Below, one piece after another: positions 24,836 to 53,905 of a stretch of DNA of 64,000 nucleotides. The notes beneath the pieces are model-generated. The model was not told where the DNA came from and ran no database searches. It worked only from the letters and a program-made list of their open reading frames with translations. Both the position numbers and the translations under genes were made by a program. Source of the stretch: Lachnospiraceae bacterium (GTDB lineage: Bacteria > Bacillota > Clostridia > Lachnospirales > Lachnospiraceae); assembly GCA_022774505.1 (NCBI GenBank), contig JALFLW010000010.1, positions 1 through 64,000 of the forward strand, written 5' to 3'. Within the stretch, counting starts at the first letter, position 1. Every line of letters starts with the position of its first letter.

Positions 24836-25249
24836 ATGGCAGTGATTAAAGAATTGATCCGCAAGGAGGCAGACGGAACGCTCAGCTTTGGTAATTTCGA
24901 CTTTGATACCAAGCAGAAAAAATCTGACTTTGAGTATGAGGGAGATCTGTATAAGATAAAGACCTTCAAAGAGATTACGAAACTGGAAAAGAATGGAATG
25001 TTTGTTTACGAATCTGTGCCGGGAACTGTTGTAACCAACATGAAGAGCACAGAAACAGAGGTAGAATTCAAGGTAGAAGGATGGGAGGATTCTTCAATCA
25101 CATTGGAACTGGAGCCGGAGACAGAATACAAGGTGCTGGTAGACGGTATTGATGTAGGCAGGATGAAAACAAATCTGGGTGGCAAGCTGAATGTCAGTGT
25201 GGAGCTTAATCAGGGACAGATATCTCAGATTAAGGTGAAGAAATTATAA
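24836..25249 (+). CDS. Conserved small protein of unknown function (clpC-radA interval)
   Basis: Complete 137-aa ORF with RBS (gggagg) between clpC and radA. Confidence 0.7.
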   Translation: MAVIKELIRKEADGTLSFGNFDFDTKQKKSDFEYEGDLYKIKTFKEITKLEKNGMFVYESVPGTVVTNMKSTETEVEFKVEGWEDSSITLELEPETEYKVLVDGIDVGRMKTNLGGKLNVSVELNQGQISQIKVKKL

Positions 25250-25252
25250 TAT

Positions 25253-26626
25253 ATGGCAAAAGCAAAGAGTAAGACGACATTCTTCTGTAAAGAATGTGGA
25301 TATGAATCATCAAAATGGCAGGGACAGTGTCCGGGCTGCAAGGCATGGGATAGCTTTGTGGAAGAACCGGTGGTACGGACATCTGCCGGTAAGGCAGTTT
25401 CCAGAAAGCAGATCAGAGAGCCGGCGAGATTGTCGGAAGTACAATTTTCTGAAGAGACCAGAATTGTCAGTGGTATAGAGGAATTGGACAGGGTACTGGG
25501 CGGTGGCATCGTCGTAGGCTCTCTTGTATTGGTTGGAGGAGATCCGGGAATCGGTAAATCCACACTTTTGCTGCAGATGTGTCAAAGGCTGGTACAGCAG
25601 GAGAGAAAGGTACTCTATGTATCCGGGGAAGAGTCTGAAAAACAGATCAAAATGAGAGCAGAGCGTCTGGGCGTTTTTCAGTCAGACATGCTGGTTATGA
25701 GTGAGACAGATCTGGATATTGTGGCCGAAACGATCAACAGAACTGTACCGGATGTGGTTATTATTGATTCTATACAGACGATGTACCGGGAGGAGATAGG
25801 TTCCGCTCCGGGCAGTGTGGGGCAGGTGAGAGAGACTACCGGTACGCTGCTTCGTCTCGCTAAGGGAATGTCTATATCGATCTTCATTGTGGGCCATGTG
25901 ACAAAGGAAGGTGTTGTTGCGGGGCCGAGGGTGCTGGAGCATATGGTGGATACCGTCCTGTATTTTGAGGGAGACGGAGGAGTCTCTTATCGTTTTCTGC
26001 GGGGGGTAAAGAACCGCTTTGGCTCGACAAATGAAGTGGGTGTATTTGAGATGCGGGGATCCGGTCTGGCAGAGGTATCTAACCCATCAGAGTTTATGCT
26101 TCAGGGCAAACCGGAAGATGCACCGGGTTCTGTCGTTGCATGCTCTCTGGAGGGGACGAGGCCTATCCTTGTGGAGGTGCAGGGGCTTGTCTGTCAGACA
26201 AATTTTAATTATCCGAAAAGGACAGCGGCCGGGATTGACTTTAACAGAGTAAATCTGCTGCTGGCAGTTTTGGAGAAGCGTCTGGGTGTACGGATGAGTG
26301 ATATGGATGCTTATATTAATGTCGCAGGAGGGATGCGTCTTAATGAGCCTGCAGTGGATATGGGGATCATACTGGCGATCCTGTCAAGCTACCGCAATCA
26401 GGTGATTGATGGAAAGACAATCTGCTTTGGCGAGGTAGGTCTGGTGGGTGAAGTACGTGCAGTCAGCATGGCGGAGGCAAGGGTGCAGGAAGCTGCAAAG
26501 CTTGGCTTTGAGAGATGTATCCTGCCGGAGGTGAACAGATCCCAGCTGGATCTGCAGCAAATGGATCTGAAAGGATTACAGCTGGTTGGTATATCTAATG
26601 TATATGAACTGCTGGAAATTTTATAG
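25253..26626 (+). CDS. radA: DNA repair protein RadA/Sms
   Basis: FFCKECGYESSKWQGQCPGCKAWDSF zinc finger, GGDPGIGKSTLLLQ Walker A, KNRFGSTNEVGVFEM (KNRFG motif). Confidence 0.97.
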   Translation: MAKAKSKTTFFCKECGYESSKWQGQCPGCKAWDSFVEEPVVRTSAGKAVSRKQIREPARLSEVQFSEETRIVSGIEELDRVLGGGIVVGSLVLVGGDPGIGKSTLLLQMCQRLVQQERKVLYVSGEESEKQIKMRAERLGVFQSDMLVMSETDLDIVAETINRTVPDVVIIDSIQTMYREEIGSAPGSVGQVRETTGTLLRLAKGMSISIFIVGHVTKEGVVAGPRVLEHMVDTVLYFEGDGGVSYRFLRGVKNRFGSTNEVGVFEMRGSGLAEVSNPSEFMLQGKPEDAPGSVVACSLEGTRPILVEVQGLVCQTNFNYPKRTAAGIDFNRVNLLLAVLEKRLGVRMSDMDAYINVAGGMRLNEPAVDMGIILAILSSYRNQVIDGKTICFGEVGLVGEVRAVSMAEARVQEAAKLGFERCILPEVNRSQLDLQQMDLKGLQLVGISNVYELLEIL

Positions 26627-41252: not shown

Positions 41253-41314
41253 CTGAAAGTTCAGAGGATTTGTTGACAGAATTACCTATGTGAATTAAGA
41301 TGTAATTTAGGAAT

Positions 41315-41871
41315 TAAGGCTTTCCACACCAATAACAGAAAGCAGCACATAATATGTCTTATGTCCGGTTACATGCAATAGCATTTTGCCTTTCTAAGTA
41401 CTTTTAAATCCGTGAGCTGTGACTAAAAAATCGTCTTGTCACTTACGGATTTCGAAAAGACGAATTGCTTTGCTACTTTGATGTTTGATGAACGCATCCT
41501 CCCGTATTTACCCCAAGGTGGGAATCAGGGGTTTCGAGAGGCACTTGCACCCGCTGGTACTTACGCCCCAAGTTTTACAGACACATATTTCATCAATTGA
41601 ACACTTGGGGCGTTATGTACCATTGCATGGTGCATCGTAGCGGGAGCGTGCCGTCCGAAACAACTGAGCCCACCTATGGGGGTAAGACGTACAGATGCGT
41701 ATTCATCAAAGCATTGCAAAGCAAAGTCTTTTCAGAAATCCTACTGATCTGCGTCAATTTTTTAGTCACAGCTCACGGATCAATTTGTTTTCTGAGGCAA
41801 AATGCCTATTTTCTCTTCAAGACATAAGACATATTATGGACTGCTTTCTGTTATTGGTGTGGGAAGCCTTA
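41315..41871. repeat. ~557-bp imperfect palindrome: two head-to-head copies of a structured repeat
   Basis: Outer 51 nt of the arms match at 48 positions by eye (TAAGGCTTTCCACACCAATAACAGAAAGCAGCACATAATATGTCTTATGTC); similarity resumes at ...GTGAGCTGTGACTAAAAAAT..., ...ACGCATC... and reaches the central GGTACTTACGCCCCAAGT/ACTTGGGGCGTTATGTACC around 41588. Confidence 0.88.
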
Positions 41872-41887
41872 GTAAATTATTATTCCA

Positions 41888-53864: not shown

Positions 53865-53905
53865 CTAAGTCTTCCCACACCCAAAACCGATATATACCCA
53901 TTATA
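53865..53905 (-). repeat. Terminal fragment of the 29.7/41.3-kb repeat family
   Basis: Reverse complement GGGTATATATCGGTTTTGGGTGTGGGAAGACTTAG matches 29781-29812 GGGTACATATCGGTTTTGGGTGTGAGAAGTTTGAG. Confidence 0.65.

Follow-up and report, generated by a model that had tools for sequence, protein, structure and literature searches.

A long intergenic palindrome in a Lachnospiraceae genome is probably one copy of a genus-restricted, MITE-like element with arms templated on each other

Introduction

Why should a palindrome of more than half a kilobase stand between pyrI and a GH2 gene in a bacterial genome? Long perfect palindromes are attacked or lost in bacteria (SbcCD). The initial annotation of this locus, in a 64,000-nucleotide stretch of a Lachnospiraceae draft genome (GCA_022774505.1, contig JALFLW010000010.1, positions 1 to 64,000; hereafter the window), offered a head-to-head MITE-like insertion and a large structured RNA among its readings, and named an assembly artefact as a hazard. 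Here we ask which of these the palindrome is, using its own draft genome (G000; 2.81 Mb, 128 contigs), a sister species of the same genus (G001), a third species of that genus (G002) and wider collections.

Results

A giant non-coding palindrome at 41315-41871 had been proposed, and this was confirmed by inverted-repeat searching, RNA folding and the list of ORFs. Three inverted-repeat pairs were found, at 41315-41365/41821-41871 (51 nt, 94%), 41408-41431/41757-41780 (24 nt, 100%) and 41563-41576/41600-41613 (14 nt, 93%), and folding of 41305-41880 as RNA gave a minimum free energy of -292 kcal/mol on the plus strand and -287.7 kcal/mol on the minus strand, compared with about -141 to -142 kcal/mol for shuffled sequences (palindrome z about -24). 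Because its ORFs (76 and 68 aa) are short and lie in overlapping frames across the right arm, and because copies of the element differ by indels, a gene within the palindrome is not credible. There was no Rfam covariance-model match above cut-off for the palindrome; such a match was listed in the initial annotation as one that would count against it. The proposed extent of ~557 bp was nearly right; under the family boundary rule, TSD-CTAAGAC...GTCTTAG-TSD, where TSD is the target site duplication, the element spans 41314-41872 and is 559 bp long. A nested hairpin had also been ascribed to each arm, but AAATCCGTGAGC...TTACGGATTT occurs in the left arm only, the matching segment of the right arm having diverged (AAATCCTACTGATCTGC). 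The parts of the element and related features in the window are as follows.

41314-41872, plus strand: whole element (559 bp), B arm on the left and A arm on the right (family boundary rule, palindrome search)
41314-41330, plus strand: left terminal inverted repeat, here TTAAGGCTTTCCACACC, family form CTAAGACTTCCCACACC (search for element ends)
41856-41872, minus strand: right terminal inverted repeat, here CTAAGGCTTCCCACACC (search for element ends)
41314-41576, plus strand: B arm, the tip of which (41325-41347) is A type, whereas most copies differ here (segment map)
41577-41599, no strand: central loop between the innermost inverted repeats (inverted-repeat search)
41600-41872, minus strand: A arm (segment map)
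41347-41365, plus strand: strongly conserved CCATAATATGTCTTATGTC-like block adjoining the variable tip (alignment of copies)
41307-41313, plus strand: left half target duplication TTAGGAA, with its partner at C41:13055-13061 and none on the right side here (duplication test and synteny)
41873-41879, plus strand: right flanking 7-mer TAAATTA, which differs from the left one (duplication test)
53865-53902, plus strand: solo B-tip remnant of the same element family, CTAAGTCTTCCCACACCCAAAACCGATATATACCCAT (search for element ends)

The element has pyrB and pyrI to its right and the GH2 gene to its left, on the minus strand. The relatives of PyrB place the host among the Lachnospiraceae. A promoter-like TTGAAA-17-TATAAT lies at 41252-41224 on the minus strand, upstream of the GH2 gene and between it and the element, in a scan whose totals were near chance. 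The solo B-tip fragment at 53865-53902 has no partner end and adjoins a hairpin and a T-run.

Used as a query against its own draft genome, the window element was found at ~40 distinct places, most of them 85-98% identical; a query from the sister species added a second subfamily and further places, and a search for the element ends added further short copies, bringing the total to at least 59 copies by our own count over the search tables. Since ~30 contig ends of this assembly fall inside the element family, the assembly breaks at these places. Tens of copies are present in the sister species G001, with an identity to the window copy of 70-83% (overall range 70-90%), and no copies were found in G002. 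Outside the genus, a search of 299 family genomes gave nothing better than chance-like matches below 45 bits, and plasmid and phage BLAST and exact-pattern scans of IMG/VR and GTDB r220 returned nothing from collections that may omit records very near the window. One weak short match in another genus (L049) was rejected as lying within a coding-like stretch, and five other weak short matches in other genera were rejected for want of a comparable palindrome around them. At one end of contig C52 of G000 (1-200; L071), only ~14 bp separate the ends of two different element subfamilies, as though one element had landed next to the other.

Prokaryotic MITEs lack coding capacity, are usually shorter than about 500-600 bp, and have terminal inverted repeats, target site duplications, multiple dispersed and mostly intergenic copies, and insertion polymorphism. 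All of these features were found in the family. The window element has no credible ORF in its 559 bp, and copies end on both sides in a 17-bp terminal inverted repeat, CTAAGACTTCCCACACC. Exact 7-bp AT-rich target duplications at the same locus flank 8 copies (TTACCTA, TTATTAA, TTACTTA, TTAGGAA, TAATTTA, TAATTAA, TTAATTT and ATTTTTA), with 23 identical 7-mers in 4278 comparisons in the same-strand control, and two further duplications were read directly for the copies on C113 and C64, taking the total from 8 to 10. The window copy itself has none, and a duplication was found in 0 of the 3 full-length internal copies of its own genome. All 24 copies examined were intergenic by a simple and approximate ORF rule; tandem genes flank 13 of them, convergent genes 9 and divergent genes 2. 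Insertion polymorphism between species was seen at two places, as a 230-bp copy on C64 of G000 is absent from the same intergenic place in G001 (C53), and a 530-bp copy on C49 of G001 is absent from the same place in G000 (C76). The element family moves or once moved. Empty sites and target duplications, which the initial annotation had recommended looking for in sister strains, were both found, and with them and the many copies and terminal repeats its MITE-like reading stands; its head-to-head arrangement does not, as this is one element formed of an A arm and a B arm. An IS630-like TA target, read from bare ends of the form TA/AGGC, was rejected because short copies give 7-bp duplications outside CTAAGAC.

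Among transposase genes of three Pfam families (PF01609, PF13586 and PF00872), none had the element's ends. We also looked for an autonomous copy beside solo terminal repeats, but in the 20 stretches fetched the printed flanks were host genes or element remnants, with no transposase recognised. A DDE transposase gene beside the C74 copy was rejected as the mobiliser, since it belongs to an unrelated IS inserted inside that copy (L136; G000 contig C74:97-1692). That IS encodes a DDE_Tnp_1 transposase of 434 aa, is flanked by what looks like an 8-bp duplication (ATGCACCA) and has unrelated ends (CCAATGTCATTAAGTTAAG).

Twelve copies drawn from the two species were aligned over a 165-pair stem, and 97.4% of stem cells were paired. 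Changes on both sides were seen at 53 of the 165 pairs and in 174 cells, compared with 34 pairs and 59 cells in shuffles, which is far above shuffled and slid controls, although alignment cells cannot be counted as independent events and blocks of shared changes come from each of the two species. Within the subfamily of the own genome, one-sided changes outnumbered two-sided changes by 61 to 13, and inserted copies decay singly while lineages stay paired. G-U and A-C occurred 15 and 13 times at pairs common to both strands, and 19 and 24 times within the own-genome subfamily. These near-equal frequencies speak against selection on a one-strand RNA, although young changes make up most such cells and for old ones the test is weak. 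The strand-specific covariation by which a structured RNA is judged, with G-U tolerated and A-C not, was not seen, and a scan found no promoter-like site within the element.

Mapping of tip, outer, inner and central segments over 22 copies gave a usual order of tipB-outB-inB-cenB / cenA-inA-outA-tipA, and several copies depart from it. The window copy has a doubled A tip, one on either end; the C52 copy, with its exact duplication kept, has an inner A segment in its left arm; and the 182-bp C90 copy, also with its exact duplication kept, has outer A joined to inner B. The C5 copy has outer B on both arms, but is at a contig end, as are some of the swapped copies; at such places the swap may be the work of a short-read assembler. 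Because several copies have segments swapped between arms, templating of one arm on the other is a more likely cause than selection for an RNA. Inverted repeats subject to template switching are known to undergo arm homogenisation, spacer inversion and two-sided changes of several bases (PMC8794818, PMC8604942), and template switching would be the process that keeps the arms alike here. However, free copying between arms should erase mismatched A/B loops, and this process does not account for the persistence of the same ones in both species. Candidate reasons are that perfect pairing is limited, since bacteria attack or lose long perfect palindromes, and that the element needs the loops structurally. 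The shorter copies, of 51-370 bp, have lost internal parts of the stem. Those on C81 and C9 have a common deletion junction at the short repeat CGTATT and others have different junctions, all most simply read as slippage across a folded strand.

The flanks of the window copy differ, with TTAGGAA on the left and TAAATTA on the right, and there is no target duplication. The left flank is reciprocal to that of a 155-bp copy at C41:13064, where the gene encodes an Amidase_3 protein with relatives that adjoin GH2 in G001 and G002, so the element formerly sat between GH2 and the amidase gene. Because of this half-duplication and the former amidase neighbour on another contig, the GH2-element-pyrI order is attributed to recombination between two copies or to the assembler. 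In G002 other genes follow pyrI, and the matching test on the pyrI side found no partner for the half-duplication among the loci compared. Cross-locus matching of half-duplications as a general rearrangement map was rejected, being at chance level, and we claim the GH2/amidase case alone, backed by gene order in two species.

Discussion

We consider that the palindrome is probably a MITE-like transposable element, non-autonomous, restricted to the genus and present here at full length, with arms templated on each other. A transposase acting in trans would have moved the element through its 17-bp ends, between which each arm is one half of an imperfect foldback, the halves staying complementary across species. 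Folding of the strand during replication could let template switching or conversion carry changes over from one arm to the other, and the shorter palindromes could arise by slippage over the stem. The window copy, with its half-duplications of two insertions, is either a recombinant between copies or an assembly chimera. Counting against this explanation are the lack of a transposase with the element's ends among the three Pfam families and of a duplication in any of the three full-length internal copies.

The foldback itself may instead be needed for propagation as DNA, for example as an extruded hairpin recognised by the mobilising enzyme, so that selection on the moving lineage keeps the stem paired while inserted copies decay. 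Pairing kept between lineages and not within inserted copies, the lack of strand bias and the internal loops conserved in both species all fit, but the arm swaps show a mutational process giving the same two-sided changes, and very short copies with exact duplications exist, though these may have shrunk after insertion; we regard this as unlikely. More doubtful is that the whole foldback, and not the 17-bp ends alone, is needed for movement, with a hairpin DNA form in the transposition cycle and selection keeping the 165 pairs complementary, which, if true, would make this a distinct foldback class of bacterial non-autonomous elements. Very unlikely, too, is a mobile gene for a large, structured non-coding RNA, whose product would be the hairpin RNA. 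The fold is very strong and covarying, and fixed G-U pairs occur at several stem positions on the plus strand, yet G-U and A-C are equally common at changing pairs, the fold is symmetric on both strands, most copies are decayed or deleted, and there is neither an internal promoter-like site nor an Rfam match. With no strand bias and no Rfam match, a large non-coding RNA was dropped as first choice.

That the whole palindrome is an inverted duplication made by the assembler or library has a negligible chance; the assembly is a draft with many breaks in the repeat, but the idea is already refuted, because the structure recurs in many contigs and also, at 70-80% identity and with two-sided changes, in a second species. 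For the GH2-element-pyrI junction alone the concern about an artefact may hold, and we put at about even the chance that assembly fused two half-copies, the left from one copy and the right from a different one, which is compatible with the mobile-element explanation. The differing 7-mers, the left one reciprocal to that beside the amidase gene, the ~30 contig ends in the element and the other genes after pyrI in G002 point this way. Cellular recombination between copies leaves the same pattern, however, and the C41 copy is short and inside its contig, so that side is more likely to have been read correctly.

The element forms a new family among known MITE-like elements, in which its length, a full-length foldback kept across species and visible arm exchange are unusual. 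QMITE1 and QMITE2 of Coxiella burnetii are likewise gene-less, with terminal inverted repeats, short target duplications (7-9 bp for QMITE2), tens of copies, full and shortened versions and a transcript that folds along its length, but they are shorter than 559 bp (39-400 bp for QMITE1) and are not known to be related to the element in sequence (PMC10969869; PMC5896051). The review passages on them describe neither two-sided changes between species nor arm swaps. Chunjie of Geobacter uraniireducens is also non-autonomous and intergenic, with conserved terminal and direct repeats and internal size variation, but is 178-235 bp long (PMC10969869). ERIC, REP, RUP and Correia elements are intergenic palindromic repeats, some movable and RNA-folding (PMC10969869), but are much shorter, and our Rfam and collection searches showed no common sequence. 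Quasipalindrome template-switch mutation produces the same arm homogenisation, spacer inversion and two-sided changes, but is a mutation process in genes and reporters and not a transposable element (PMC8794818, PMC8604942, PMC7202029).

The two species are a natural collection of many long palindromes, and the deletion series, arm swaps and two-sided changes among them reveal how such inverted repeats persist and evolve within bacteria. They also carry a warning that strong covariation alone need not imply a functional RNA, and gene order beside full-length copies needs careful treatment. One further variant, on contig C21 of G001 (25043-25621; L104), has a 39-bp tandem duplication (repeated GGCACTTGCGCTCGCCACTACTTGCATCCTG) in the middle of its palindrome.
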